Shown: positions 807 to 41,615 of the stretch, piece by piece | Position numbering within the stretch: the first letter of the stretch is position 1 | Layout: the number at the start of each line of letters is the position of its first letter | Virus record (IMG/VR): IMGVR_UViG_3300043426_000449 | Location: 1 to 41,615 of that record | DNA from: a virus | Direction: 5' to 3' (one strand) | DNA length: 41,615 nt | The notes under the pieces: generated by a model | What the model saw: only the letters and a program-made list of their open reading frames with translations | Told to the model about the DNA's origin: nothing | The model's database searches: none | Position numbers and translations under genes: made by a program

Positions 807-882
<76 letters not shown>

Positions 883-890
883 TATAAGAC

Positions 891-925
891 AAAGGGTTAC
901 AGCCAAAGCTGTGACCCTTTTTCAT
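891..925 (+). terminator. Rho-independent terminator after tRNA-Thr
   Basis: A 13-bp stem at 891-903 and 908-920 (AAAGGGTTACAGC with GCTGTGACCCTTT, one G-U pair) encloses a CAAA loop and is followed by a run of T. It lies 8 bases past the tRNA CCA and ends the host transcript. It is the last element I would give to the tRNA unit before the prophage. Confidence 0.9.
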
Positions 926-996
926 ATGAGATTAGCCCAGTTCTACGCTGGTGCTACGGAAGCATAAGGGTATTCACGTCGTTTTAAGCCCTATAT

Positions 997-1110
997 AAAC
1001 ACCGGAATAACGTTCACAATGTACTCAACGTTCACCAACCGCACCAGATTGCGGTTTCTAGCTGTGAACATTGTAAAATCTAACGTTCACCTTTGAGTAC
1101 CAACGTTCAC
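997..1110 (+). repeat. Cluster of AACGTTCAC / GTGAACATT repeats and hairpin upstream of the FinO-like gene
   Basis: Five 9-bp units lie within about 100 bases: AACGTTCAC at 1009-1017, 1027-1035, 1082-1090 and 1102-1110, and the inverted form GTGAACATT at 1064-1072. Between the second unit and the inverted one sits a perfect 7-bp hairpin, AACCGCA (1037-1043) and TGCGGTT (1050-1056) with a 6-base loop; the flanking units can pair as its outer stem (8 of 9). The stretch 997-1038 recurs in inverted orientation in the right-hand cluster (36603-36632 and 36689-36719). The last unit abuts the ATG at 1111, so these could be operators, iterons or a structured mRNA leader. A weak -10-like TAAAAT is at 1074-1079 and another, TATATA, at 992-997. 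Confidence 0.8.
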
Positions 1111-1551
1111 ATGGAAGAAAAACCCAAAACCCTAACCATCAAAAGAAAAACCCTAGTGGTAGTAAAACGCCAAGAGGTAGAACCTGCACGTCTAGCCAAA
1201 ACCAAAGCACCCCCTGCACCGCCAAAGCGTAAGAAGCCATCAGAAAAACACCTAAAAATCCTAGATGAACTATTAAGACGCAAGTGCAGGGTATGGCGCG
1301 ATTACAAGCCACTAATGAACGGTTTTAGACATATTATGTTTAAAATAGGAGGAGAGGCTTGCGTACATCACTCAAAGCGTATGGTCAACGCACTTTATGA
1401 AAAGCACTGCACGGACAAACGTTATTTAAAAAATCTAATAGATAGTCAATACAGACTAGATGAGAAGGGTAATGAGACTGACCCCATTACCGCACAGGAT
1501 AAGCAATTAGCTGCCGAGAAACTAGCCAAGTTGCAGAGCATTAAACGCTAA
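1111..1551 (+). CDS. FinO/ProQ-family RNA chaperone
   Basis: This family binds RNA stem-loops with single-stranded 3' tails and promotes pairing of antisense RNAs with their targets (plasmid FinO, chromosomal ProQ). The 146-residue product has a basic, disordered N-terminus with KTLTIKRKTLVVVKR, resembling the LTLKRKT stretch of plasmid FinO, a Lys/Pro-rich linker, and then the folded domain from about residue 45. The domain keeps the SKRMVNALYEKHCTDKRYL helix pattern, the YRLDEKG turn and the closing DPITAQDKQLAAEKL helix. An in-frame TTG at 1093 could extend it by six residues, but I prefer the ATG. No good Shine-Dalgarno sequence is visible because repeat units fill the leader. It converges on the late operon: its TAA at 1549-1551 touches the next gene's stop codon. 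Function in the phage is unknown; control of lysis-lysogeny or copy number by RNA is inference. Confidence 0.85.
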   Translation: MEEKPKTLTIKRKTLVVVKRQEVEPARLAKTKAPPAPPKRKKPSEKHLKILDELLRRKCRVWRDYKPLMNGFRHIMFKIGGEACVHHSKRMVNALYEKHCTDKRYLKNLIDSQYRLDEKGNETDPITAQDKQLAAEKLAKLQSIKR

Positions 1552-2301: not shown

Positions 2302-5300
2302 TTACTTATACCCCAATGCCTCTAGCTGTTGTTGATACTTTTTACTAATCAACACACCAGAGTGCTCAGCCTTATTAGCCCTGTTCTTTTCTGTAGTTTT
2401 TAGAGTACGTTTTAAATCTTCGGGAGAAATACTTAAATAAGGATTTTTACCATTCCAACGATTAATTTCACTCTGAATCTCTTTTAAATCACCCTTACCA
2501 TCTAAAACAGCACGCTTATAACGATTAACCAAACCATTACGCCGCCGCTCTAATTGCACCTTAGCCGTTTCAATAACGCTTCGCTCATCATACACTTGGG
2601 TAACATCATCAGGAGCAAAGCCCATAGCCTGATTAGCCAATTCCCACGCATTAAACTCATCAGCCCCTAATAATTCCTCACCTTTACGACCTGTTAAACC
2701 ATCAGTGGCATAACGTTGTGTTTTGGATATATCCCGCAAAAACTTAGGCAGCCATTTTTCCATGCCTTTTTGTATTTCACCTTGAGACATTAAATCAGCA
2801 CCATCCGCCATACTTTTAGCTAAAGAGTAATTAGCTCCTAATAATTGTTCCGCCAATTGATTAACCCAATCACCCCCTTGATCATTATGTATCGAGGCTT
2901 CACGATACAGCAGGCTATTAATCCCAATGCGTGAGGATAGGTCTATATCTGTAGTAGCATTGACAATCCCACGATTAACGGCACGTTCGCCAAAGTCACC
3001 CAAGTACTCGCGTAGGAATTGTGTCCACATCGCTTCAGGGTCAAACGGTTCATCAGGATCACCCATGAGCGGAGCAAGCACCATCGCTGCGATCAGGAAT
3101 AACGCAGTAGCCCCCGCAGCTTTACCTCCAAACTTATAACCCACCGCCGTTGATAACGCCGCAGTACCCATCCAAGCCCCACCCACCCCCGCAGCCCCAG
3201 CCAACAGCGCCGTAGTACCCATGACTCGTAACAACTCACCCGCCGCCAATTTTTTAACTTCAGGGTCAGTCTCTTGACTAATCACGTCTTTCATACGAGT
3301 GAGTAAAAACTCAGTTGTCATAATGCTGTAGTTCTTCATAGGTAACAGTATCTTGGCTGCATTACCCTTGATCATCAGCGCACGGTTAGCATGACCATAG
3401 TTATAGTGAGTGCGGGTAGTAATCCAACGCGCAAAATCTTTAGCACCTATACCATTACTTCCTTGTCTATCCAATTTTTGTTGAGTAGGTTTATCTACCG
3501 CTTGGTATAAACGATAAGCCGCCAATTGAGTGACTTGACGATTAAAAATTTCAGCATTGTGGAAAAAGAACCCCAGATAAGCCGCCGCCTTAGACATCTT
3601 CAACGCAAACTTACCCACATTAGCTAAACCATCCCCCGATGCAGTACGAGCCAGCGAATTAGCTTGTGTAGTAGAAGTAATACCTTCCAGCTCAAACGTT
3701 CCTAATAACTCCCGCTCCTCTGAAGTAAGGTGTTGAGCCGATGAAGTACTAAAAATGCCTTGTCGTACATCAAACTTACCATCAGTAGTCCGCCCCAACT
3801 TAGTAGCTTTCATTACATCCGCAGCCGCCTTAAAGAGTTCCTCATTAGCTTTTACATCCCCAAAGCGCGCGGCAAGGGCAGGGTAGGTAATCTGAGCAAT
3901 TTGCATCAGATTAAGCAATCCCGCCGCTGGAGAACCCGCCAATAACATAAAGAAAGCGGCATTACTCATAAAAGCAGCCAAAGCATTCGTATTAGGTGAC
4001 ATCATCGCGTCAATCTGCTTACGCATAACGTTAAGTACACGCCCCGCTTGCACGCGGTCAGCTTCATCAATCAAGATACTTTGCTCAGCCGCATCCTTAA
4101 CTAAAGGCTTATCATCATACCGTCCTGCCACCAAATCCTCTTGGAGCTTAATTTGCTCAGCCATATGACTCATAGCACGTTGGATTTTATGCCCAAATAG
4201 AATACGCCCTAAGTCATGCCCCCCATGCAACATGGCATTCGCAAAACTACGCTCCATATCACCGGACGCACCCGCCACAAAGTGCCGCCGCATTTCTGCT
4301 TTACGAGCGCTCAAATCCGGTAATTGATCTAACACAAACGCATTCAGAGTGCGCTTTTGGTCATCCGTTAAACCTTGTACATCATTCAAAGCAGAGAGGA
4401 GTTTACCCGCAATCCCCGGCGCATCTTTCGGGTGATTGAGCAATTCCACCTTTTTACTTACCAGCACCTTAGCTTTAGGCTCATCTTTTTTAATAGCATC
4501 AGCAAACTCATTCGCTTCGAATTCAGACTCAAAGTGATACCGCGCATATTCACCTAATGAGCGCACTTGCACCACATAATCACCATAACGCTTAAGCGGG
4601 AAGTAAGGCCCCAGTTGCAATTGCTTCCGGTACTGGAGACGCAACCCCTTGACCGTATCCATAGCCGCTTGAGCTGCATTAGCATCCAGCTTATTTTCCT
4701 GCACAATATCCGCAATATGCTTCTCTAATGATTCAGTTTGTTTTTCCCATAACGTATTAAGCTGTTTTTTAAAGTCTTGATAAACTGCTTGCTGGTCAGT
4801 ACTTAAGGACTGCCATTGTTTAACTAATTCAGGTTGTGCTTTAAAACGCTTAGTTTCAAAGTCCATTTTCTTTTGCAGTAAAGCCAAGCCCGTTTGAGCC
4901 TTTTTAGTAGCACGGGTACGTTCATCAGGTGTATAAGCTTGATTATGCCGAGCTTTGCGCTCATCCGCCGCCAGATTACGCAACTCATTCTCAAACTGAG
5001 TTTTCTTGCCTCTAGCCCACTTCATATTTAGACTTGGCGTATAGTCTTGGTCAGGATGTACATTGTTGAGGGTAGCATTGAGCATCATATCCATGACACC
5101 TTGACGCTCAGGAGCCGACAAGCGCATAAGCGCATCATGCGATTTTTCAAACCGATTCGCCCAATGCTGCATCACTGCCTGCATCCCTTGATTAAGATGC
5201 TCAATAGCAGTTAAAGGATTTTCAGCAAACTTATTAAAAATCTTTTTATTACGATCAATAATCGTCTGCAACGTCATCGTATGCAGTACTAAATCACTAG

Positions 5301-8300
5301 GATTTTTATGAGACCAAGCCTTTTTAATACCACGCTCAACACTAGCAAGCCCTTGCTTTAATAATTGTTTAGCTTTAGTAGGATTAGATAAATCTCTTAC
5401 ATTAAATTCTTGCTTTCCATGATTAAAACGTATTGTCTGTAAATGCCTAGGCACATCCTCCGTGATTTCTACAGGAGTATTTACCCTTTGTTGAGCATTG
5501 AGTTTCTGCCGAGCTTGTACATTTCGCGCCTCAACTTCTCCCGCTAAACGCTCATATTGCTGATAGGCTGTTACTAACGTAGGATTATTCTGCAAGTGTT
5601 CACGGCGCATAAATAAATCAAGATATGTTTTATCTTCAGGATAAGTTTTTAATTCATCCAAAATCCCAAAATAATCCTTAGCTTCATTACTAGGAACATT
5701 ATCCCAATTGAGACCGCGTTGTATTTTTCCATTACGCTCTCTACTAGTACCATACTTATCTTGGATACTGATAAACATTCGATTCGCTTTACGACGCAAA
5801 TCACCATATTCTGAGTTGCTAAACATTAAGTCTTGAATTTCATCACTTAATTTCGCGATTTCAGTTTTATTGTCATCATATTTATCTACAAACTCATTGG
5901 CTGCCCCACCTGTTGCAAACCCCTCTAAACGCTGAATAGCGTGCTGTACTTCGTGGATTAGAGCCGAATCTTGAGAATATTTACCTAAACGTATTAACCA
6001 CTCCCCACTAGACAACACATTAAAAGATGCTGACGAGCCAGTGCTATCTTTATCTACCATTACTAAAATATTTTTTAATTCTGGGTATGCTGCGAATAAC
6101 TCAGGGTGAATTATCGCCTGATCAAGAGGCAATACATTAGCCCCCTTGAATTGCTGATTAACATCTTTTAAATAAAATCCATCCTCTATATCAATATCAT
6201 CACTATAAGGCTCAGGCATTCCCTCGTGTTTTTTTATAGACTCTAACAAGCTAGCAGGCAATAACTCCTCTAAAAGCTCAATATTAGCACCCTCGATTTT
6301 AATAATATCAGATGTCTTTTTGGCATCCGTAGGTACTAGTTTTACATCATAACTATTCTGTTCATTAGGTCGATACGTTACCGTTTTAATAGTTGATGAT
6401 TTATGCCCACCCTCTGCAATTAATTTAAATAACGGTGTTAATTTAAACTGACTATCATCAATTTCAAAACGCGCCTTGTCATCTGCTCCTATAAACCAGT
6501 CTTTAGCCTGATCAGCCGTTTTAGCACGCTCCCCAGCAAAGGTATATTTAGTACTGGACAAGGTACTAGCTGTTTTACCACTAGCCCAACTTTTCGCCGC
6601 ACGCTCAGCCAAATAGGCTATATCCTTAGGATTAATAGCCCTCTCAATCCCCAGCTTTTTAAGTACTTTCTGAACAAAACGCCGCACCGCAGCAATCACC
6701 CGACTACCCACAGGGTTCAGCCGTCCACCCGCAATCACTCCTTGCGCCAAATACGCCAGCCGCTCAGAGTCAATATGTTCCGCAGGGGTAGAGGCAGGTA
6801 CACGCTCAGCCGCTTTGATAGCGTCAGGATTGCCCTTTTCTAAAAGCTGGTTAAATTGCTTTACTAAATCAGCGTACTCATTACCCAACATAGTAGACAG
6901 TGCAGCATGTTCACCTGCCTCATGCACGAATACAGCCCACGCTTGACCCACTGGTATATTCTGAGGATAAAGCGTGACCACGCCATTATCATAAACACCC
7001 GCCACATTCGGAGGTGCATTATCACTAATCACCAAACGACCCGATTGCACCAGCTTATTAAAAGTACTAGCACCTAATTTATTAATTAGCTCATTGCGGA
7101 TTTTAGGCAATACAGCATTATAATCTTGTTGAGGCAGAGCTTCAGCCTTAGAGTACTGAGCACCACCTACTGAACTGGTAGCGCTTGCCGTAGCGCCTTC
7201 AGCAACTGAGGATTGTTCTGTAGTTGCCGGATTAATTCCCTGATCTTGGTTTGGTCCAGTGCGTCTTGATTCTGCACTGGTGCTGGTGTTGCGTTCGGTT
7301 TCTTGGGTGTTGGCTTGTTCAATGGCATTATTAATCACCTCACTGGATGCGGGAGGATTATCACCAAATAACCCCGCCTGTTTAGGATTACCCGCTTGCT
7401 TTACCCCTTCCGCATAACGTTGCAAAAAGTCACGCAGAGTTGCAGGTTTTCGCGCTTTCTGATCTAAAAAGTTTAATAATTGTTTTATTTCAATAGGCGT
7501 ATCATTAAACGCATCTAATTGATTTAACCACTCTTGCACGTCAATATTCTGCGATCGGAGCCGAGTGAAAATTTCTACCGTATCATTAAACGCATCTAAT
7601 TGATTTAACCACTCTTGCACGTCAATATTCTGCGATCGGAGCCGAGTGAAAATTTCTACCGTATCAATTAAATGTGGAACAATATTCAGATGAGGATGAG
7701 CAATACCTTGCTTCACATTATCCCGCAACTCAGCCAATGCAGGAGCAGCCCCATTTAGGGCATTGAGCACGTTTCGGCTAGTATTATCAGTACGCTCAAC
7801 CAAACGCTGTAAAGCCGGACTATCCCCATAAGCTAAATGTAGTACTGCGTTTTGGATGCGCCTTAAACCCGCTTGACTAATACCCCCTTCAGCATCCATC
7901 AACTCATTGTGCTGATTAATAGGTGTTTTCGCTAAAATGCGCCTTACTAAATTACGCGCAGCAGGTAGTGTAATATTTCCAGAGTCATCAAATTCTAAAT
8001 CATGTAATGACCCCACACGCTCAGCATCCACTCGTGCTTGCTCCAGTGGTGACATACGCGCAGCTCCACCCTCATTACTCATCACTGCCATATCACGAGT
8101 ATTGACCGCATTTTTAAAGCGCCTCACCAGTACCGGATACTTCATCCCTTGTACACGAGCTGAATCAATCCCTAAACGCCCCGCATCTTCTATCAACTTA
8201 GCCTTATATTGAGCACCTTTACCCGTTTTATACGCTTCCTGAATGCCAGACATGCGCCCATTGCCAGCAACAATCTGCCCTGATTGATTAAGTACCGGAG

Positions 8301-10797
8301 CGCCAAAGTCCATCACAGGCGATTGTCCGACTAGCTCATATTGCAGGTCATTACCAATAGACTGCACTTGTTGTGTTAAGGCGGCACGATTACGATCACG
8401 ATACTGATTATCCGCTTGCTCAATTGTAGGATTTAAACGTGCTGCATCTAGTACTTCATAGTCTACCGCGTGCCACTGACCATCCTCTGAGCGTATCTTG
8501 CTAGATTGCCCTATAATTCTTTCGCCTTGATAGGTGTCTTGTGGCGTTGTTTCTGCGGTTTGAACGGGAGCCGATTCTAGCGCATCAGGATTAGGGGTAT
8601 CTTGCGGTATTGCTTCACTAGAGATCGTGGATTCTGGCGCGTTTTGTGCGTTCGCATTTTGTTCTGTATTAGTTAAATCATCACTAGCAGGTAGTGATTC
8701 AGGTACTAAATCATCAAACAAGCCATCATTAGGAGTACTTTGCTCAATCTCAGCTTGATAACTATCCCATTCATTAGTAGCCGCCTCTACTTCAGAGTCA
8801 AATTCACTATCTAAATTAGAGTCGTCAAAATCATCAGACAATGCCACAGGCTCAGCATCAGACAAAGCACTGGCTAAATCATCTCCTAGCAATGGATTGT
8901 TAAAATCACCCTGCATAATGACAGGCTCAGGCGTACGTACTGGAACAGGGTTAGTCAGCGTACTATTAGCTGATTGCACAGGGGCTACACTACCTTGATT
9001 TGTGCTAATCGGATTTGGAGCAATAGACGAGCTGGTACTTGCACTATTGACCATAGCCCCTAAGCTCTGCCGATAAGCTGTATTTGAGTCCACCCCTTTA
9101 GCAACCAAAGCGGCGTACTGTTCTCGCGCATTTTGTAACCCTGTGCCAAACCGCTCAGCACTAATAGAGGCAGCATTCCCCCCTTTACCCTCATGATAGC
9201 TTCTACCCGTTTCGGGATTGGCTACGCTTGCAAATTCCATTGACCCCGCTTTTACAGCCGCACGAATATCACTAGACTTACCCGTAATATAGTCGCGTAA
9301 ATCAGGACGTTTATCCTTAGCAATATAATCAGCAAAAATACGCTCTTGCAGCTCAGGCGTTACCTTTTCATCTAAAGATATTCCCAGCTTTTGTACACTT
9401 TCTGCAAAAGTAGTTGGGGTGGCTTGATATTTTCCCGCAGCAAAAATACGATTAGGATTGCCTTTAGGTAGTGATTGCCGAGCCATTAACTCGCCTACAG
9501 TCATCTGACTAAAATCAATTTTATCTCGACTATCCCCAGCAATACCCTTGTTATAAGAATTATAATCCCCCTCACCAGAGGCAATAATCCCCGACAGGCT
9601 ATCGGTAGTATCGGGTGCAGGTGCAGTCACATCTTTCTTAGACGTTAGCTTATCCTTTACCATACTTCCCACAGAGCCAACACTTTGCATCCCACCCGAC
9701 ATAATGGCAGTTTGCAACGCATGTTGTCGCCATGCGTCAGGTATACCGAGTTCTTCTTTGGTTAAATTAGCGCTTCTTTCAGCGTGATTTTGCCCCAGCG
9801 CCGTCATAGTTTCAGTGACTTGTTCTGACCCCATGCCCCCTAAAAATCCTTTAATGCCTTTACCCACCCCCCGCAACATAATCAAATTACTAACGGCTTC
9901 GGGTATGGCTTCCCATGCCCCGTATTCATTAGCGGCGGCATTGTACTGATCAACAGTTTGTGTCCACTCTTCTTGAGTCAAAGGCTTACCAGTCTCCACT
10001 GCTTTAGCTTTTAACTGCTCAAGTACTCTATCTAAAAACTCATCTTTTGACGCACGAAACGAGACAGTACCTGATGCCCCCATTCCCGCAACCGCACCGA
10101 CGGCAGGGCTAGCGAGCATACTGGCAGGCACACCCACGCCTAAACCAGCCCCCATATTAGTCAGACTATAGCCCAATGATTTACCAATACCCTGTAAACT
10201 GGCATAGTTGGGATCAACCTCTATTAATTCCCCCTTCTCATTTTTCTTGGGTTGTATAGTAGTGGATTGGATGAGCTGATCTAACCAAGTATTTTCAACA
10301 CTATCATCTCCCCCTCTTATCGAGCGCAGCACCGTATTGGCAGCAGAGGGCAAAATATCAGGTGATTGATCCAGCACTACGCCTGCACCTTCGATTAAAG
10401 AGGGTACAGAAGCACGACCTTCAGGATTTAAAATAGGGCGATGTCCTCCTGCATTTTCGTAAACTTGGTCAAGAGGAATCTTTTTATCGTTGGCAATACT
10501 TCTAGCTACAACCTCATTCATCGCCTTTTCGCGATTGCCACCAAAGAAACCCAACACTTGATCAGTTAAGCTAGGCTCCCAAGGCTTAGCAATAGCTACT
10601 CCTTTCGGTAATGGTTTATCTTCAAAAGAGGCAGGCATCGCGCCTGCCCCACCGCTAGGAGGAACTAAATCATCAAATAAACCATCAGAGGGAGGAGGTT
10701 CAACTAATTCAAATTGACTCCAATCAACATTATTAGCTGCTGGTTTAGCAGGAGGAGGTTCAACTAATTCAAATTGACTCCAATCAACAGTTGCCAT
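2302..10797 (-). CDS. Giant polyvalent internal virion protein (lysozyme-like, ddrB-ParB-like, two zincins, LPD38-like)
   Basis: A 2831-residue protein, probably packaged and ejected with the DNA. Rough layout: tandem VDWSQFELVEPPP motifs at 5-40; a lysozyme-like domain at about 405-575 opening with GEGDYNSYNKG, for crossing peptidoglycan; a ddrB-like ParB-superfamily domain at about 755-960 with AGNGRMSGIQEAY; a metallopeptidase-type HEAGEH near 1295; a second zincin motif HEVQHAIQ near 1617; a long helical region; and an LPD38-like segment with hydrophobic stretches at about 2280-2300 and 2530-2580. This domain mixture is known from the polyvalent proteins of phages and conjugative elements. 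The motif GLFDDLVP occurs near 41 and again near 690. I place the start at the ATG at 10797, preceded by AGGTGG, rather than the GTG nine bases earlier. It follows the three other internal-protein genes. Three domains could act on host protein or DNA after entry; that is inference. Confidence 0.8.
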   Translation of the reverse strand: MATVDWSQFELVEPPPAKPAANNVDWSQFELVEPPPSDGLFDDLVPPSGGAGAMPASFEDKPLPKGVAIAKPWEPSLTDQVLGFFGGNREKAMNEVVARSIANDKKIPLDQVYENAGGHRPILNPEGRASVPSLIEGAGVVLDQSPDILPSAANTVLRSIRGGDDSVENTWLDQLIQSTTIQPKKNEKGELIEVDPNYASLQGIGKSLGYSLTNMGAGLGVGVPASMLASPAVGAVAGMGASGTVSFRASKDEFLDRVLEQLKAKAVETGKPLTQEEWTQTVDQYNAAANEYGAWEAIPEAVSNLIMLRGVGKGIKGFLGGMGSEQVTETMTALGQNHAERSANLTKEELGIPDAWRQHALQTAIMSGGMQSVGSVGSMVKDKLTSKKDVTAPAPDTTDSLSGIIASGEGDYNSYNKGIAGDSRDKIDFSQMTVGELMARQSLPKGNPNRIFAAGKYQATPTTFAESVQKLGISLDEKVTPELQERIFADYIAKDKRPDLRDYITGKSSDIRAAVKAGSMEFASVANPETGRSYHEGKGGNAASISAERFGTGLQNAREQYAALVAKGVDSNTAYRQSLGAMVNSASTSSSIAPNPISTNQGSVAPVQSANSTLTNPVPVRTPEPVIMQGDFNNPLLGDDLASALSDAEPVALSDDFDDSNLDSEFDSEVEAATNEWDSYQAEIEQSTPNDGLFDDLVPESLPASDDLTNTEQNANAQNAPESTISSEAIPQDTPNPDALESAPVQTAETTPQDTYQGERIIGQSSKIRSEDGQWHAVDYEVLDAARLNPTIEQADNQYRDRNRAALTQQVQSIGNDLQYELVGQSPVMDFGAPVLNQSGQIVAGNGRMSGIQEAYKTGKGAQYKAKLIEDAGRLGIDSARVQGMKYPVLVRRFKNAVNTRDMAVMSNEGGAARMSPLEQARVDAERVGSLHDLEFDDSGNITLPAARNLVRRILAKTPINQHNELMDAEGGISQAGLRRIQNAVLHLAYGDSPALQRLVERTDNTSRNVLNALNGAAPALAELRDNVKQGIAHPHLNIVPHLIDTVEIFTRLRSQNIDVQEWLNQLDAFNDTVEIFTRLRSQNIDVQEWLNQLDAFNDTPIEIKQLLNFLDQKARKPATLRDFLQRYAEGVKQAGNPKQAGLFGDNPPASSEVINNAIEQANTQETERNTSTSAESRRTGPNQDQGINPATTEQSSVAEGATASATSSVGGAQYSKAEALPQQDYNAVLPKIRNELINKLGASTFNKLVQSGRLVISDNAPPNVAGVYDNGVVTLYPQNIPVGQAWAVFVHEAGEHAALSTMLGNEYADLVKQFNQLLEKGNPDAIKAAERVPASTPAEHIDSERLAYLAQGVIAGGRLNPVGSRVIAAVRRFVQKVLKKLGIERAINPKDIAYLAERAAKSWASGKTASTLSSTKYTFAGERAKTADQAKDWFIGADDKARFEIDDSQFKLTPLFKLIAEGGHKSSTIKTVTYRPNEQNSYDVKLVPTDAKKTSDIIKIEGANIELLEELLPASLLESIKKHEGMPEPYSDDIDIEDGFYLKDVNQQFKGANVLPLDQAIIHPELFAAYPELKNILVMVDKDSTGSSASFNVLSSGEWLIRLGKYSQDSALIHEVQHAIQRLEGFATGGAANEFVDKYDDNKTEIAKLSDEIQDLMFSNSEYGDLRRKANRMFISIQDKYGTSRERNGKIQRGLNWDNVPSNEAKDYFGILDELKTYPEDKTYLDLFMRREHLQNNPTLVTAYQQYERLAGEVEARNVQARQKLNAQQRVNTPVEITEDVPRHLQTIRFNHGKQEFNVRDLSNPTKAKQLLKQGLASVERGIKKAWSHKNPSDLVLHTMTLQTIIDRNKKIFNKFAENPLTAIEHLNQGMQAVMQHWANRFEKSHDALMRLSAPERQGVMDMMLNATLNNVHPDQDYTPSLNMKWARGKKTQFENELRNLAADERKARHNQAYTPDERTRATKKAQTGLALLQKKMDFETKRFKAQPELVKQWQSLSTDQQAVYQDFKKQLNTLWEKQTESLEKHIADIVQENKLDANAAQAAMDTVKGLRLQYRKQLQLGPYFPLKRYGDYVVQVRSLGEYARYHFESEFEANEFADAIKKDEPKAKVLVSKKVELLNHPKDAPGIAGKLLSALNDVQGLTDDQKRTLNAFVLDQLPDLSARKAEMRRHFVAGASGDMERSFANAMLHGGHDLGRILFGHKIQRAMSHMAEQIKLQEDLVAGRYDDKPLVKDAAEQSILIDEADRVQAGRVLNVMRKQIDAMMSPNTNALAAFMSNAAFFMLLAGSPAAGLLNLMQIAQITYPALAARFGDVKANEELFKAAADVMKATKLGRTTDGKFDVRQGIFSTSSAQHLTSEERELLGTFELEGITSTTQANSLARTASGDGLANVGKFALKMSKAAAYLGFFFHNAEIFNRQVTQLAAYRLYQAVDKPTQQKLDRQGSNGIGAKDFARWITTRTHYNYGHANRALMIKGNAAKILLPMKNYSIMTTEFLLTRMKDVISQETDPEVKKLAAGELLRVMGTTALLAGAAGVGGAWMGTAALSTAVGYKFGGKAAGATALFLIAAMVLAPLMGDPDEPFDPEAMWTQFLREYLGDFGERAVNRGIVNATTDIDLSSRIGINSLLYREASIHNDQGGDWVNQLAEQLLGANYSLAKSMADGADLMSQGEIQKGMEKWLPKFLRDISKTQRYATDGLTGRKGEELLGADEFNAWELANQAMGFAPDDVTQVYDERSVIETAKVQLERRRNGLVNRYKRAVLDGKGDLKEIQSEINRWNGKNPYLSISPEDLKRTLKTTEKNRANKAEHSGVLISKKYQQQLEALGYK
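7499..7665 (-). repeat. Exact 81-bp in-frame tandem duplication
   Basis: Bases 7499-7579 are repeated without change at 7580-7660, and identity continues for six bases into a third copy. The result is a 27-residue duplication (DTVEIFTRLRSQNIDVQEWL plus seven residues) within the ddrB-like part of the giant virion protein. Perfect identity, including third positions, means a recent event. Confidence 0.95.
10691..10789 (-). repeat. 39-bp direct repeat encoding tandem VDWSQFELVEPP motifs
   Basis: Bases 10691-10729 and 10751-10789 are identical, with a 60-bp period in frame. They encode two copies of VDWSQFELVEPPP at the very N-terminus of the giant protein, separated by a short Pro/Ala linker. 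A repeated short motif at the exposed end of a virion protein may be a docking or packaging tag; that function is inference. Confidence 0.93.
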
Positions 10798-10798
10798 A

Positions 10799-11992
10799 CT
10801 AACCACCTACTGCCACAGGTTGACCATTAACAACCCGATATTGCCGCCCATCTTTGCCGCGTATCAATGCGCCATCTGGAAAAGGAGCACCGCTGGAAGG
10901 TGCAGCCCCACCAGCACTTAGAAGCGTATTAAGCTGATCTTGCAAACTCATACGCTGTTGTAACAAGCGCTGTTTTTCAGTACCAGCTTCATAATTACCC
11001 CGACCCCATATCAGCGGCTTATTGGGTTCTTCTTGAGATAATTGACTATCTAAATCCTGTATTTGCGCTAATACATTAGCCACCACAGGATTTTCTAATA
11101 ATTTTGATTGATCGGCTTGACGTAACTTTTCTGCTTGAGCTTTATTTCTATCAACAATAGATTGTTGTACGGCTGGAGTGCTTGCAGCCAATTGATGATT
11201 ACGGGTAGCCAGCCCCATTTGATTAGCGGTTTGAGCCGCTTTTAATTGTTGTTCTAAGGGCATTAATGCCTGCACTTCACCGGCACGAGCATTATTCAAC
11301 CCAGCCGCAGCATCATATTGACGACCTTGTGCCATACGTGCGAAGGCTTGTGCTAACATCGCCTCCTGCTTAGGAGCAATTAAGCTATTTACTTCACCGG
11401 CACGAGCATTATTCAACCCAGCCGCAGCATCATATTGACGACCTTGTGCCATACGTGCGAAGGCTTGTGCTAACATCGCCTCCTGTTTAGGTTTAATTAA
11501 ACTATTTACATCCCTAGCTCTAGCCTCATCAAACAAAGCCTTAGCTACTTCCACTCGTTCCCGCTCATTCAATAGCCCACGTTCAGTCTCAGCTTTGGAT
11601 CGATAATAATCGCCTTGCAAACTTTGATTAGCAGCTTCAGCTCCTTTGAGCTTCAGAAAGGCTTGAGCAATACCATTCCCTATATCTACTTCACCCGTAT
11701 TTTTATTAAAGACCGCACCCTGATTAGTCACATCAAATGAAGTACGACCATGCCCACCATACAAACTATTAACATTAGCCGCTTGCCAATTACCCGCTAG
11801 ACCCGCAGTAATAGCATCGGCAATAGATTTATACTGTTGCTCATCCAATGCAGCCTTAGCCTTACGTTCACGAATCTGAGTACCCACCAACTGACCTTGA
11901 GCATAATCCTTTTGCCCCATGCCACCGCCAAACATCTGACCCAGTAAAGTACCAAGACCTTGTGCCGTTTGAGCACCTACTGTAAAGCTCAT
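10799..11992 (-). CDS. Internal virion-type protein with tandem repeats
   Basis: A 397-residue protein, Ala/Gln/Leu-rich and largely helical, with no family I recognise. A 39-residue unit built around KQEAMLAQAFARMAQGRQYD is present twice in tandem and a degenerate third part precedes it (the DVNSLIKP segment). The C-terminus is Gly/Pro-rich and ends in a short strand-forming tail (GALIRGKDGRQYRVVNGQPV). The ATG at 11992 has GGAGG five bases upstream. Its stop lies one base before the next ATG, so the giant protein is translationally coupled. Position after the gp10-like gene and before the polyvalent protein matches the ejection-protein genes of short-tailed phages; role inferred from position and composition. 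Confidence 0.65.
   Translation of the reverse strand: MSFTVGAQTAQGLGTLLGQMFGGGMGQKDYAQGQLVGTQIRERKAKAALDEQQYKSIADAITAGLAGNWQAANVNSLYGGHGRTSFDVTNQGAVFNKNTGEVDIGNGIAQAFLKLKGAEAANQSLQGDYYRSKAETERGLLNERERVEVAKALFDEARARDVNSLIKPKQEAMLAQAFARMAQGRQYDAAAGLNNARAGEVNSLIAPKQEAMLAQAFARMAQGRQYDAAAGLNNARAGEVQALMPLEQQLKAAQTANQMGLATRNHQLAASTPAVQQSIVDRNKAQAEKLRQADQSKLLENPVVANVLAQIQDLDSQLSQEEPNKPLIWGRGNYEAGTEKQRLLQQRMSLQDQLNTLLSAGGAAPSSGAPFPDGALIRGKDGRQYRVVNGQPVAVGG
11274..11507 (-). repeat. 117-bp in-frame tandem repeat
   Basis: Two units, 11274-11390 and 11391-11507, nearly identical over about their first 96 bases and diverged at the end. They encode the 39-residue repeat in the internal virion protein. The divergence at one edge suggests an older event than the exact 81-bp duplication in the neighbouring gene. 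Confidence 0.9.
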
Positions 11993-35859: not shown

Positions 35860-36500
35860 AACCCAGCTACCTTATTTACGACTGCGAAATTATCAAAGCT
35901 ATTCCACCCAAACCCAATGAACCTCATTATGAAGATATTGACTATTGCGAAGGCTGGAAAGACTTTGCAGGTATGGGAATCAGCGTCATTGGTGCATACA
36001 GTTCTATCACCGAACTACACGTCTTTTGTGCTGACAACTTCCATATCTTTCAAGGCAGGTTAGACCAGCATGATGTAATCGTTGACTTCAACGGTCACAA
36101 CTTCGACCGCAACCTACTAGCCGCCAATGACATCACCATTGATGACTACAAACACTTTGACATCCTACGCGCCATCTGGAAAGCACAAGGCTTAGACCCT
36201 GATGAGTTCAACCCCAGAACACACGGCGGCTATGGACTGGACGCAATGGCAAGAGCCAACCTAGAGAACCTTACCAAGAGTGGTAACGGAGCATTAGCCC
36301 CAGTACTTTGGCAACGCGGACAAGTAGGGGAGGTAATAGATTATTGCCTGAACGATGTACACATTACCCATGAGCTGTTTCAAAGATTGCTGGGAATGTC
36401 CGGTATGTTGGTAAACCCAAAAATACCACGACCAGAAACTAATATTGAGCTACTGGATGAAGACCTAGACCGCATTCGCGACTTCATGCCCCGTTTCTAA
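35856..36500 (+). CDS. DEDDy-type 3'-5' exonuclease
   Basis: A 214-residue RNase H-fold exonuclease of the DnaQ-like class. Exo I is YDCE (Asp9, Glu11), Exo II is NGHNFD (Asp84, residues 79-84), and Exo III is YCLNDV (Tyr163, Asp167), giving the four acidic residues plus the Tyr of the DEDDy group. It lacks a polymerase domain. It could process recombination or replication ends, or RNA. The gene ends directly at the right-hand GTGAAC repeat cluster: one unit overlaps its stop codon (36499-36507). No terminator is obvious downstream, so its transcript may run into the repeats. Confidence 0.8.
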   Translation: MKPSYLIYDCEIIKAIPPKPNEPHYEDIDYCEGWKDFAGMGISVIGAYSSITELHVFCADNFHIFQGRLDQHDVIVDFNGHNFDRNLLAANDITIDDYKHFDILRAIWKAQGLDPDEFNPRTHGGYGLDAMARANLENLTKSGNGALAPVLWQRGQVGEVIDYCLNDVHITHELFQRLLGMSGMLVNPKIPRPETNIELLDEDLDRIRDFMPRF

Positions 36501-36719
36501 CGTTCACACTCATGATCTTAACGCTCATTCCGTGAAACATTAACGAAATGAGCGCCTTACCCCTGTTTTTCCCCAACTGTTAAACCTAATCAAGCTCATT
36601 CCTTTGTGAACGTTGAGAACATTGTGAACATTACAAAAAACTCAATGTTCACACCTAAAACACTGAATAAACAGTCTTTTTTAAGGCATGAGAACGTTGT
36701 GAACATTGTTCCGGTGTTT
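36499..36719 (+). repeat. Right-hand cluster of GTGAAC[A/G]TT repeats, inverted copies of the left-end element
   Basis: Units lie at 36499-36507 (AACGTTCAC), 36606-36614, 36624-36632, 36644-36652 (AATGTTCAC) and 36699-36707, with a variant GAGAACGTT at 36690-36698. Read on the minus strand, 36603-36632 matches the left cluster at 1009-1038 in 27 of 30 bases, and 36689-36719 matches 997-1027 in 27 of 31. GTGAACATT at 36624 and AATGTTCAC at 36644 form a perfect 9-bp hairpin with an 11-base loop. These lie in the gap between the exonuclease gene and the convergent helicase gene. Origin iterons, operators or a trans-acting RNA are all possible. Confidence 0.8.
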
Positions 36720-36864: not shown

Positions 36865-38886
36865 CTAAACCCCGTCCTCAGCCTCCAACAGCTTCAGTAA
36901 ACTAGGACAATCATACTCCTGTCGTACTGTCTCACCATGAGCCTTAGCCCGTTTAATATCCGCCTGAATCAACGCCAATAGCTTAGGCTTATCGGCTTGG
37001 ATACCCTGCTCAAACTCACGCACCAGTGCCTCATCAGCACTCTCAAAACGTAATAGCTTGCCACCATACAACACACTGATCTTTAAATCAGACGCATACA
37101 ACGCCGTCAACCAATCGCTTAAATCCCGCTTATCCGTATCAGGTACAGGTACTGGAGTAGGTGCAGACTCAGGTACAGGAGCAGACTGAACTTGACTAAT
37201 CTTCACCCGCCAACCATCCCGCGATTTTTCATGTTCCACCATAATCCCGCGCACTCTCAACGCTGGCGCTAACCGCCGCAAAGTACCGCCTAATCCTTTT
37301 GGTGATCGTGGCCAGCCTTGCTTGTCATAAAAAATAGGGCGGTGATTATTAGTCAAGTCCGTTAATAACGCCGCCGTCGTATCATAATAGCTAGGTACTT
37401 TATCCATCAGGCTCACAATCGCTTGCGCCACAGGTGACGACTCAATCGCCCGATTAACAACACGATTCCGATTCCGTGTAAACACCTCAATAAAATCCCG
37501 CGCATCCCCAATCCCTACCAACATCGACTGCCCCAAATGAGCAAAGTCAGCCAAACGCGGAGGATTAGGCACAACAGTACTCGACAGCTTAGCCAGTGTT
37601 TGACTCATACGCGCATACAAACCACCCAAAATCGCCGGATAATCCCTAGCCCAAGCATCTTCCAACCCTTGCTCCTGCTTGTATGTTTTAATAATAGGCA
37701 GTTCTACCGCAATCACCCGATCAGCCAAATCCGCTTGAGTCGCCAATTCACTAATGCCACCAATAATCACTGGACGTTTAGCATCCCACATTTCCTCCTC
37801 ACTGGTAGTATGGAGTCGCCGTGTAGCAAAGCCACCCCCAGTAGACATGGTACACAAAGCATCCTGTTCACCCGCCGTAAGATTGCTCATATTGTCATAA
37901 CAAAGCACATGATTATGTCGAGCCGACACAAAGTAGTCCGCAATCTCCTTAGGTTCACGCCGCAGCATCACCTTAGCGGGATCAATCAAGGCGCAAATCC
38001 GCTTTTGAAACGTCGACTTAGCCGAACCTTGTTCACCGGATACCTCCAGTACCGGAAACGGGAAATCGCCCCGCATAGCCTCTAATAGCCACGCCTCCAC
38101 CAGTACTCGTGTCTCATCATCCACCGGATTAATATGCTCCCACAGCGTCCCCAGTTCGCCCGACTCAACAGGGTAGGGTAATGCTCTAGCATTACGCGAC
38201 TTACGAAACCGTACCGGACTATCAGCCGCCGCAATAACATTCCAACCTTTAGCCGTAATCTTTACCACCCGTGCCAAATCATCATGCAACGCCACATAAA
38301 CCTCGTTTTCGTGCATCGCATAGCGCAAGTACACCGACCTACACTCACCCTCAGCAGCAAAGCCCTCCAGCGTTTCTAGCGCATCCTTAAACGCACTATC
38401 CCCCGGACTACTTTCATAAATATTAAAAAATTCTCTCGAAGCCCAACGCCTAAAATCCACCCCACGCAACAGGTACGTTTCATTATGCGACCCCTCACCG
38501 CTGGGGTTATCACAAGGACAAGTTGCATAAAACTCATCATCATCATCCCTAAACAACTCAGCCTTACTATTGACCAACGCCACCAATAAATCGGCTTTGG
38601 TTTGCATCCCCCCACCACCCGCAGGTAAAGGAGCCGTGATTTTAAAAAGCCTCAGTATGACGGCATGAGGGATAGTCTTTGCAGCCCGCCAATCCGCATC
38701 CAGTCGTAAATAATAATTCTCATCAACCTCGCGCAGCTTGCGAAATGCCGCCAATGCCACATCTTCAAACAAGGCAGATGGTAAACCGCCCTTAGCTCGT
38801 TCAATTGCTTTATCAATAATGGCATTAGTAGCGTCATCAATCAGAGCACTACCGGAAATAGCCTCCAATACAGCATCACTCATCAT
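36865..38886 (-). CDS. SF3-like replicative helicase / ATPase
   Basis: A 673-residue protein with a P-loop GEQGSAKST (encoded near 38013-38040), a Walker B-type CYDNMSN (37885-37905), and the downstream block CTMSTGGGFATRRLHTTSEE and RPVIIGGISELATQADLADR. These mark a phage helicase family related to superfamily 3, usually encoded beside a TOPRIM primase. The N-terminal 250 residues have a small Cys/Asp-rich section (ATCPCDNPSGEG). The C-terminus carries a PVP-rich linker, like the RepO-like protein, and a final helical domain. I start at ATG 38886 (MMSD), with AAGGAT before it; the ATG at 38883 is equally possible. It follows the primase gene by eight bases. Confidence 0.82.
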   Translation of the reverse strand: MMSDAVLEAISGSALIDDATNAIIDKAIERAKGGLPSALFEDVALAAFRKLREVDENYYLRLDADWRAAKTIPHAVILRLFKITAPLPAGGGGMQTKADLLVALVNSKAELFRDDDDEFYATCPCDNPSGEGSHNETYLLRGVDFRRWASREFFNIYESSPGDSAFKDALETLEGFAAEGECRSVYLRYAMHENEVYVALHDDLARVVKITAKGWNVIAAADSPVRFRKSRNARALPYPVESGELGTLWEHINPVDDETRVLVEAWLLEAMRGDFPFPVLEVSGEQGSAKSTFQKRICALIDPAKVMLRREPKEIADYFVSARHNHVLCYDNMSNLTAGEQDALCTMSTGGGFATRRLHTTSEEEMWDAKRPVIIGGISELATQADLADRVIAVELPIIKTYKQEQGLEDAWARDYPAILGGLYARMSQTLAKLSSTVVPNPPRLADFAHLGQSMLVGIGDARDFIEVFTRNRNRVVNRAIESSPVAQAIVSLMDKVPSYYDTTAALLTDLTNNHRPIFYDKQGWPRSPKGLGGTLRRLAPALRVRGIMVEHEKSRDGWRVKISQVQSAPVPESAPTPVPVPDTDKRDLSDWLTALYASDLKISVLYGGKLLRFESADEALVREFEQGIQADKPKLLALIQADIKRAKAHGETVRQEYDCPSLLKLLEAEDGV

Positions 38887-38894
38887 AGTTATCC

Positions 38895-39878
38895 TTATTG
38901 AGTCGAGCCTTGAACCGCCTGCAAGCACATCAAATCATTAAAATCCGATAGTTCAATAGGGGCATTAGCAGGAAAGGCAGGAATAAAAATAGACACATTA
39001 AAGGGCAGAGCAGAGCGTACTGCCTTAGCAGCGGTCACTCCTGGATTGCCTTGTGTTTTACGATCATTATCAGCAATCAATGTAATAGATAAATAAGGAT
39101 AAGACTGCACCAACGCTTGAGCCACAGGCAGCAAATTACCACAATCAAACGCCGACACAGTGAGCTTGCCACGTTCAGCAAACACACTAGCCGCCGTAGC
39201 CACACCCTCGCATAAGTCAACCTCAATAGCCCCAGATAGCTTGCCCCCAAACGCGAAAAAGCACCCTTTCTTTTGAGTACCTTGCAAGAAACGCTTTAAA
39301 CCATTGTGATCAATCAACTGTACAGATCGCAATTGACCCTTACCCTGTTGCAAGCTAAACATCGGCACTAAAAGCACAGACTGAGTACTATCAATTAAAG
39401 CTCGCATCTTATATTTAGCTAAAATACCCTCCAGCACTGCACCTTCAATCACCTTTACTGCTGGCAAAAGTACCTGCTTACGCACCGCATAAGGATGATC
39501 ATCCACACCCTCAAAGCTTGCGGCTTGCAGCAGCTCATGGGCTACCTTTTGCGCTCGTATTGCCAGTGAGAGCAACCGCTCCTCCTCCTGCCGTCTACGC
39601 TCAGCTTGCTCCTTTAATAACGCCTGACGCTCATCAGGTGAGAGTTTTACCAAGCCCGTGCCATAAGACCACTTCTCGCTAACACTACCCCGCCAAGACC
39701 CGAAAGCCCCCGCAGGATAATCCCCCTCGTGCAATACATACCAACCCGATGAGTCAGTACGTTTTTCACCAAACCTATGTATACGACCATCCGCTACCAA
39801 CGCTCGAGGCGCAAAGCCTAAACGATCAGCAATAGCTGCCTTAAATGCCGCTTCAACCTCATGCCTCACGATAAGCAT
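38895..39878 (-). CDS. TOPRIM-domain DNA primase
   Basis: A 327-residue protein with the TOPRIM signature: the catalytic Glu in VDLCEGVATAASVF (near 39190-39225) and the metal-binding LIADNDRK (near 39055-39085). The N-terminal half starts with HEVEAAFKAAIADRLGF and ADGRIHRFGEK, resembling the substrate-reading part of phage and plasmid primases; a long charged helix (LLKEQAERRRQEEERLLSLA) joins the halves. No zinc ribbon is seen. The start is uncertain: ATG at 39917, ATG at 39878 or GTG at 39869 are all in frame, the last with the best ribosome spacing to GGGGG. It overlaps the AlpA-like gene and makes primers for the helicase encoded next. Confidence 0.78.
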   Translation of the reverse strand: MLIVRHEVEAAFKAAIADRLGFAPRALVADGRIHRFGEKRTDSSGWYVLHEGDYPAGAFGSWRGSVSEKWSYGTGLVKLSPDERQALLKEQAERRRQEEERLLSLAIRAQKVAHELLQAASFEGVDDHPYAVRKQVLLPAVKVIEGAVLEGILAKYKMRALIDSTQSVLLVPMFSLQQGKGQLRSVQLIDHNGLKRFLQGTQKKGCFFAFGGKLSGAIEVDLCEGVATAASVFAERGKLTVSAFDCGNLLPVAQALVQSYPYLSITLIADNDRKTQGNPGVTAAKAVRSALPFNVSIFIPAFPANAPIELSDFNDLMCLQAVQGSTQ

Positions 39879-40113
39879 CCCCCGCTGATTCAATAGCAGT
39901 GTTTGCCAAAAACGCATCTAAATCTTCGGGCAAGTAATAGATACGGGAGCCAACCTTGTGATACCTGGGTTGTTTAGTACCAATAGGTAATTCCGAATAT
40001 CGCCATCTATTCAACGTGGCTTTACCAATACCCATGTAAGCAGCAGCCTGTTCGATAGATAAACGTCGTTCAGTAAAGCTAGAGACCGCTTTTAAAGCCC
40101 TGTTAGTGATCAT
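39859..40113 (-). CDS. AlpA / excisionase-like helix-turn-helix protein
   Basis: An 84-residue DNA-binding protein of the MerR/AlpA kind: LSIEQAAAYMGIGKATLNRW (about 18-37) is the helix-turn-helix, and RYHKVGSRIYYLPEDLDAFL is the wing and closing helix. AAGGAG lies nine bases before the ATG at 40113. Proteins of this type regulate integrase genes or act as directionality factors; here it heads the primase-helicase operon, next to the integrase region. It may link excision with replication. Confidence 0.82.
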   Translation of the reverse strand: MITNRALKAVSSFTERRLSIEQAAAYMGIGKATLNRWRYSELPIGTKQPRYHKVGSRIYYLPEDLDAFLANTAIESAGDAYREA

Positions 40114-40736: not shown

Positions 40737-41615
40737 CTAACTAGGTGATTTAATCTTGCTCAATTTGAGCATAGTTTCAATTGTATCCTCCATAGCCTCC
40801 CGCACCGTCTCAATATCTAACCGCGCATAAACAGCCGTGGAAGCAGGGGAGGAATGATGCAATGTTTTACCAATCGTAACCAAACTATACCCCTTCTTAG
40901 CTTGCCAACTCCCCATCGAGCGCCGCAAATCATGCAACCGTAAATCCTCCAATTGGGCACGCTTTAACAACCTATCCCACCCCCGTTTAGGCTCAGTCAA
41001 ATGCCCCTGTTTAGCCCCCAAACGTGCCGGAAATACCCACTCACCCTCTACATTTTGTCGCCGTACCTGTAATAACTCATAAGCAGTCGATACCAAAGGC
41101 ACAATCTGAGACTTACCGCTTTTAGCGTTTTCCGGCTTAATAGACCACGTTTTATCCAGCCAATTAATCTCATCCCAACGCATCTTGAGTACTGCGGTGC
41201 GTCTCACCCCTGTAAACAACAACATCAAAAAGTAATCACGAATAGTCGTATTAGATTCATCATTCAATGCCCTAAAAAAGCGCACCAACTCATCCGACTG
41301 TAAAAAACGTTCCCGCGCCACTTCCTCAAATTTTTCCGTAGCACTACAAGGATTAGAGCCTAACAACAAATCCCAATCTCTAGCTTTCTCAAACATCGAT
41401 TTCAGCAATGCCAACACCCGATTAGCTTGATAATGCCCATGCTTATCCCCCAATGTCTGGTGTAATTCCGTTACTTCCAGCTTAGTAATACCGTCAATAG
41501 GACGCTTAGCCCAATGCTGCAAATACACTCGATATTGGCGCTCATCCTCAGCCCACGTCTTTTTACGTGGCTTAGCGTGTAGCTCCAAGTACTTAGCAAA
41601 TAACTCACCAAAACT
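40737..41615 (-). CDS. int: Tyrosine integrase, 5' end cut by the window
   Basis: Site-specific recombinase that inserts and excises the prophage. The frame is open to the last base of the window, reading SFGELFAKYLELHAKPRKK at the cut end, which is the start of the core-binding (SAM-like) domain; the arm-binding N-terminus lies outside. Catalytic residues are all present: Arg in FTGVRRTAVLKM, Lys in KSGKSQIVPL, HDLRR (His-x-x-Arg), His in LHHSS and the nucleophile Tyr in VYARL. The pattern fits P4-type integrases, which commonly use tRNA 3' ends. It reads leftward, so its 5' end faces the unseen right attachment site. Confidence 0.93.
   Translation of the reverse strand, partial: SFGELFAKYLELHAKPRKKTWAEDERQYRVYLQHWAKRPIDGITKLEVTELHQTLGDKHGHYQANRVLALLKSMFEKARDWDLLLGSNPCSATEKFEEVARERFLQSDELVRFFRALNDESNTTIRDYFLMLLFTGVRRTAVLKMRWDEINWLDKTWSIKPENAKSGKSQIVPLVSTAYELLQVRRQNVEGEWVFPARLGAKQGHLTEPKRGWDRLLKRAQLEDLRLHDLRRSMGSWQAKKGYSLVTIGKTLHHSSPASTAVYARLDIETVREAMEDTIETMLKLSKIKSPS

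Follow-up and report, generated by a model that had tools for sequence, protein, structure and literature searches.

A divergent FinO/ProQ-family gene at the edge of a temperate prophage, and the integrase linkage of its relatives in Thiotrichales

The known roles of FinO/ProQ proteins are the regulation of plasmids, in both transfer and replication, of competence, and of RNA networks on a global scale. FinO of the F-like plasmids works with FinP and traJ, and chromosomal ProQ, RocC and NMB1681 are host genes. The IncI-plasmid proteins FopA and PcnR, also of the FinO family, regulate the replicon that encodes them by way of an antisense RNA or of a stem-loop in a leader; in passages of a 2023 review covering phage- and plasmid-encoded homologues, FopA is described as stabilising Inc and promoting its pairing with repZ mRNA, while the stem-loop bound by PcnR lies within the leader ORF that precedes repA (PMC9977716). 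Excerpts from other sources list a FinO/ProQ protein in a table of E. coli islands (PMC6174562) and describe episomal phage satellites that carry a FinO-like gene alongside plasmid-type parA/repA maintenance, with no adjoining integrase mentioned in those excerpts (PMC13230959, 2026); the excerpted part of PMC8545117 has no bearing on prophages. Phage proteins of this family are encoded by Sinorhizobium phiM9, Salmonella phage 7-11, Escherichia vB_EcoP_SU7 and Aeromonas 4_4572. Phage-borne FinO proteins are thus already known, and the new part of the locus described here is its genomic context.

We analysed an IMG/VR virus record (IMGVR_UViG_3300043426_000449) over its full 41,615 bases, hereafter the window, in which a sequence-only reading had proposed a FinO/ProQ-type protein with a KTLTIKRKT N-terminus. 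The gene lies as follows.

1111..1551, plus strand: FinO/ProQ-domain gene (proQ; product P0001, 146 aa), from a PF04352 profile match and a fold match
1093..1110, plus strand: possible 5' extension of the proQ ORF, for which an in-frame TTG at 1093 could serve as start (ORF listing)

The ORF runs from ATG to TAA without an internal stop, and the antisense reading in the same register contains many stops. Single-sequence searches with P0001 were weak or empty: PHROGs returned weak matches to unnamed families only, NCBIfam gave no match, plasmids gave three weak matches, and no close homologue was found among 50,697 phage records or in two contig collections. We therefore based the family assignment on profile and fold. 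The PF04352 profile matched P0001 above its cut-off (33.9 bits, E 3.4e-8; Pfam cut-off 27), aligning residues 65-142 with profile positions 25-100 of 109, and P0001 was the sole match in the record. An AlphaFold2 model built from eight sequences had a mean pLDDT of 79.6, with the domain mostly >90 and the N-terminus disordered. The top 26 chains retrieved with this model by Foldseek were all FinO/ProQ entries, and a second structural aligner gave Z scores of 13.9 to NMB1681, 12.9 to RocC and 10.3 to FinO (1dvo), the next unrelated row standing at 3.7. From sequence alone, a profile of P0001 relatives recovered NMB1681, ProQ, RocC and FinO. The proposed assignment is borne out by this match and fold: P0001 is a FinO/ProQ-family member, and its gene is a new, divergent one.

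With FinO, P0001 shares domain, fold, location on a mobile element and a basic N-terminal tail, presumably akin to the N-terminus of F-plasmid FinO. The KTLTIKRKT string was indeed present, at residues 6-14, and resembles an N-terminal motif that ProQ proteins of Thiotrichales have in common, in most cases K[KR]TL[ST][IL].RK. One row of the alignment behind this motif (A1), L036:1-3, is meaningless, and A1 fed no later model. R115 is invariant in our alignment A5 and aligns with the Arg in GATRVDLDG of ProQ, presumably R80 of the E. coli protein, on the RNA-binding face. The chromosomal proteins have the same fold as P0001 but are host genes, and where P0001 has H99, a His in most Thiotrichales relatives, E. 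coli ProQ has a Tyr in LRLYTS, which we take to be the conserved Y70. FinO likewise departs from ProQ at this position, so we did not treat the Tyr as family-defining. The four phage proteins named above share the fold of P0001, a structural likeness at 12-19% identity found in a phage structure library. We infer that P0001 binds RNA.

The 5' end of the window is host DNA, where a trmJ-like gene is 83% identical to the Thiofilum flexile copy. The integration site and the genes at the far end are listed here.

807..882, plus strand: tRNA-Thr (TGT), integration target (ARAGORN, Rfam)
838..882, plus strand: 45-bp attL core; the attR of a second record, G001, is identical (record comparison)
884..927, plus strand: inverted repeat, T-rich on its 3' side and terminator-like by eye, just inside attL (repeat search)
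36865..38928, minus strand: 687-aa ORF, in which GEQGSAKST looks Walker-A-like by eye
38895..39917, minus strand: primase-like protein (phrog_2249, 2e-46)
39859..40113, minus strand: AlpA/excisionase-like HTH protein (PF12728, phrog_66)
40737..41615, minus strand: tyrosine integrase, running off the window end (PF00589, 3.2e-24)

G001 is 100% identical to window positions 3250-41615 and extends beyond the right end of the window, supplying the remainder of the integrase gene (int), which starts ~300 bases past the window end, and attR at 42117-42161 in continued coordinates. In attL and attR alike, the repeated 45 bp are the 3' half of tRNA-Thr, and the provirus measures 41,279 bp from attL to attR. 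G001 is missing proQ because it stops at window position 3250; we rejected it as a proQ-less version of the prophage on these grounds. Past attR, G001 (as L034, 1-11225) carries terminase-, FtsK- and primase-like ORFs identified by eye, which may mark a second mobile element, so that two would stand in tandem at tRNA-Thr.

The window also encodes terminase, portal and capsid proteins, an adaptor of the SU10 type and a polyvalent internal protein of 2,833 aa. The integrase, AlpA/excisionase-like, primase, terminase, portal and capsid genes together with attL/attR show that the element is a temperate prophage, and its host is Thiofilum-like; its earlier description as lytic-type was wrong. The accompanying term podovirus-like fared better, since the adaptor and the 2,833-aa protein make a short-tailed phage plausible. 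The 687-aa ORF had no reliable family match, and a consensus promoter/terminator scan did not call the inverted repeat at 884..927 and gave no signal above shuffles. Short tandem duplications, showing up as double matches in the record comparison, occur in the late genes (window 7498-7672, 10691-10789 and 11274-11512; matches of ~94, 39 and 122 bp). The partners of FinO did not turn up in this prophage: neither traJ or other transfer genes nor FinP was found in the scanned window ORFs (PHROGs 31, Pfam 21), a scan that small antisense RNAs could escape, and Rfam at gathering score found tRNA only.

Inside attL, proQ comes first and is transcribed inward; inside attR, int comes last, also inward. 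In the excised circle these coordinates make the two genes divergent, ~0.5 kb apart across attP, whereas FopA and PcnR are carried on plasmid replicons. The proQ gene also runs against the direction of the neighbouring late genes and lies at the extreme edge of the element, as would suit a lysogenic-conversion ('moron') gene in an accessory-gene spot on the attL side, whose product, expressed from the prophage, rivals or mimics host ProQ and alters host RNA networks. T. flexile, the closest named relative, does have a separate chromosomal ProQ with a similar N-terminal motif. We nevertheless regard this explanation as unlikely: edge accessory genes leave unexplained the two further element types with proQ beside int that are described below, and the excess of integrases near proQ over a control family.

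The proQ leader contains repeats of a motif, GTGAACRTT, which has 11 exact matches across the 42,175 bp of window plus flank, where 0.85 would be expected. All 11 fall in three clusters; the AACGTTCAC form was also counted.

1009..1110, no strand assigned: GTGAACRTT in five exact copies, directly before proQ
1037..1056, plus strand: hairpin AACCGCA/TGCGGTT in the proQ leader (sequence, fold)
36499..36707, no strand assigned: GTGAACRTT in five exact copies, in the gap between convergent genes next to the primase/Walker-A ORF pair
~41902 (continued coordinates): single GTGAACRTT site in the first codons of int

The two arrays have a 28-bp block in common at 92.9% identity. Folding of the proQ leader was better than that of shuffles (z -2.4), which inverted repeats alone would produce. 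The clusters suggest sites for one element-encoded factor, for example a replication protein, an excisionase or an integrase (arm sites), and an origin or operator system is possible. The repeats may instead be simple DNA sites without relation to P0001. An antisense RNA pair formed by the 36.6-kb repeats and the proQ leader is a possibility, DNA sites being the simpler account.

Presumably these arrays resemble the iterons of P4 alpha. Were they origin iterons, the initiator might control proQ, and P0001 might act on RNA of the replication region in the manner of FopA or PcnR. The placement of the second array, with convergent genes on either side and the primase and Walker-A ORF close by, would agree with such replication control, as would the recurrence of its 28-bp block in the proQ leader and, in the excerpted report, the combination of parA, repA and a ProQ/FinO-like regulator in episomal satellites (PMC13230959). 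The iteron role is putative, though, no antisense RNA was seen, and the same site also stands at the int start; we consider this explanation distinctly unlikely.

We searched 63 Thiotrichales genomes for PF04352 and found 66 places in 30 genomes (29 above cut-off), with a maximum of six per genome. A tyrosine-integrase ORF, detected by a profile made in this analysis, lay ≤650 bp from 25 of the 66, on the same strand every time: 20 with int upstream of proQ, four with proQ upstream of int and one in-frame fusion remnant (L120). An integrase was within 3 kb at 28 of 66 places. The 66 include G042, for which no flanking sequence entered the count, and G045:C12:106896 was left out of the 25, its integrase at 107743 being just past the flank examined. 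Several int-proQ elements have 16-71 bp between int stop and proQ start, a spacing consistent with an operon. The background density was 184 PF00589 matches in ~85 Mb (21 of the surveyed genomes). In seven chosen genomes an integrase was near 14 of 24 PF04352 places compared with 1 of 15 ParE-toxin places (Fisher p 0.0018), with distances for the ParE control taken by eye and its lone near place adjoining the L120 remnant; many int-proQ elements are closely related, so the PF04352 places are not independent events. That Thiotrichales mobile elements repeatedly pair proQ with int suggests a role in mobility control.

The L120 locus (G060:C4:4235071-4235907) holds an integrase remnant and a ProQ domain in frame, in a 278-aa open frame that probably arose by deletion between int and proQ. 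Adjacent int-proQ copies occur within one genome at L121:7495-11189 (G058) and at L037/L038 (G006:C10), which suggests that related elements have integrated more than once.

When 369 genomes sampled across the class were searched, 18 PF04352 matches lay outside the order, and none of the 18 had an integrase in its 1.5 kb flank (one match sits at a contig end). The link is therefore lineage-bound, and inheritance of cargo could explain it: proQ would be functionless in the window element, and its int linkage in relatives would reflect descent within few element families. The int-upstream proQ genes do make few tree groups. The window ORF, however, is intact, its product still has the fold and the N-terminal motif although it sits on a long branch, and many mobile proQ copies have a covarying leader. 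Functionless cargo thus strikes us as improbable. A link between FinO/ProQ proteins and integrases was not found in the open-access papers searched; the main text of PMC9977716 is without the whole word 'integrase'.

Among IMG/VR relatives, int was beside proQ or ≤0.8 kb from it in 7 of 7. A scan with proteins of the type with int upstream retrieved six records, all with int upstream of proQ (two small ORFs separate them in one record) and all with a P2-type major capsid gene. A closed-genome example has the order tRNA-Gly, int, proQ, capsid genes, rep gene over ~11 kb; its genes were named by eye from the IMG/VR relatives, and this example appears satellite-like, although its far end was not located. 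The elements with int upstream, as distinct from the window prophage, are candidates for capsid-forming phage satellites, a class with its own capsid genes and integrase but no tail genes. The corresponding scan with proQ upstream of int retrieved one record, which has a Mu-type portal and a large terminase. Together with the window prophage, there are three element types with proQ. In a quickly built tree with long branches, ProQ proteins encoded downstream and upstream of int formed separate groups, that is, those with int upstream apart from those with int downstream. P0001 fell within the Thiotrichales set (SH-aLRT 86), on a long branch paired with another long branch; it was placed in neither int-linked group, and its membership in them is unsupported.

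Many mobile proQ genes are preceded by a structured motif that reads AUACAACACC, hairpin 1, GGAAAA.CUUGC, hairpin 2, GCGAGU and then the ATG, with the 3' arm of hairpin 2 immediately before the start codon. In 17 leaders, picked by eye out of 66, aligned by sequence and with the structure drawn on the alignment by hand, 89.8% of pair cells were standard (74.9 +/- 2.1 shuffled) and the covariation score was 0.379 (0.151 +/- 0.024 shuffled; slid versions ≤0.109); 0 of 500 shuffles matched the pairing or the covariation value. A covariance model, R1, found 22 places in the 63 genomes, 15 of them training sequences and one of the other seven identical to a training leader. All 22 stand directly before a FinO/ProQ ORF (20 by coordinates, one at a contig end and one before a truncated ORF, by eye), which makes it likely that the R1 leader is a cis-acting element belonging to mobile proQ genes. 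It is probably autoregulatory. Where tried, comparison of the motif with Rfam gave no match. The single R1 match outside the order in the class sample (G245, 28.1 bits) has no ProQ ORF downstream and was set aside as chance.

The window leader itself was rejected as an R1 carrier: an unfiltered whole-window search gave no match there (best 8.5 bits, elsewhere), and the GTGAACRTT repeats occupy the leader instead. We also rejected identity of the proQ leader with the int-alpA RNA (RF02996), to which the L070 leader had no match at E up to 1; a GGGAAACC-like string common to both is near only 2 of 29 int-alpA places, and the window has no RF02996 at gathering score. The int-alpA RNA occurs in 18 of the 63 genomes (17 above cut-off), with six copies ≤~7 kb from proQ (L129:13464-13536, L169, L181, L186, L189 and L193). 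A second, L121-like leader type of proQ genes was recognised by eye.

We tentatively favour, as a possible reading of the window locus, that P0001 regulates, at the RNA level, the integration/replication switch of the element that carries it. Profile and fold show P0001 to be a FinO/ProQ-fold protein of the temperate prophage, and by prediction an RNA chaperone; the sequence places its gene first inside attL and makes it the divergent neighbour of int across attP in the excised form. P0001 might bind structured RNAs of its own element, most likely attP/int or replication-region transcripts, and so tune staying integrated against excising and replicating, by analogy with FinO, FopA and PcnR, each of which adjusts either the transfer or the replication of its plasmid. 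The presence of GTGAACRTT at the proQ leader, the int start and the replication genes suggests that one element-encoded factor could act at all three. RNA-level control by P0001 is plausible, although no RNA target was found; the surroundings of the gene speak for a putative role in integration/replication of the element itself more than for one in the ProQ network of the host.

A broader proposal, which we hold to be somewhat doubtful, is that unrelated integrating elements of Thiotrichales independently coupled a FinO/ProQ chaperone to a tyrosine integrase for RNA-level control of integration and excision, with an autoregulatory leader RNA. The integrase linkage and the leader in Thiotrichales are the interesting part, more than the gene itself. 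Recurrent integrase coupling would add integration and excision of phages and satellites to the roles of FinO/ProQ proteins and, if true, would represent a FinO-type system serving integrases, not conjugation or plasmid copy number. The int-proQ operon with its compact structured leader would offer a system of few parts in which to ask what the ligands of mobile FinO proteins are.
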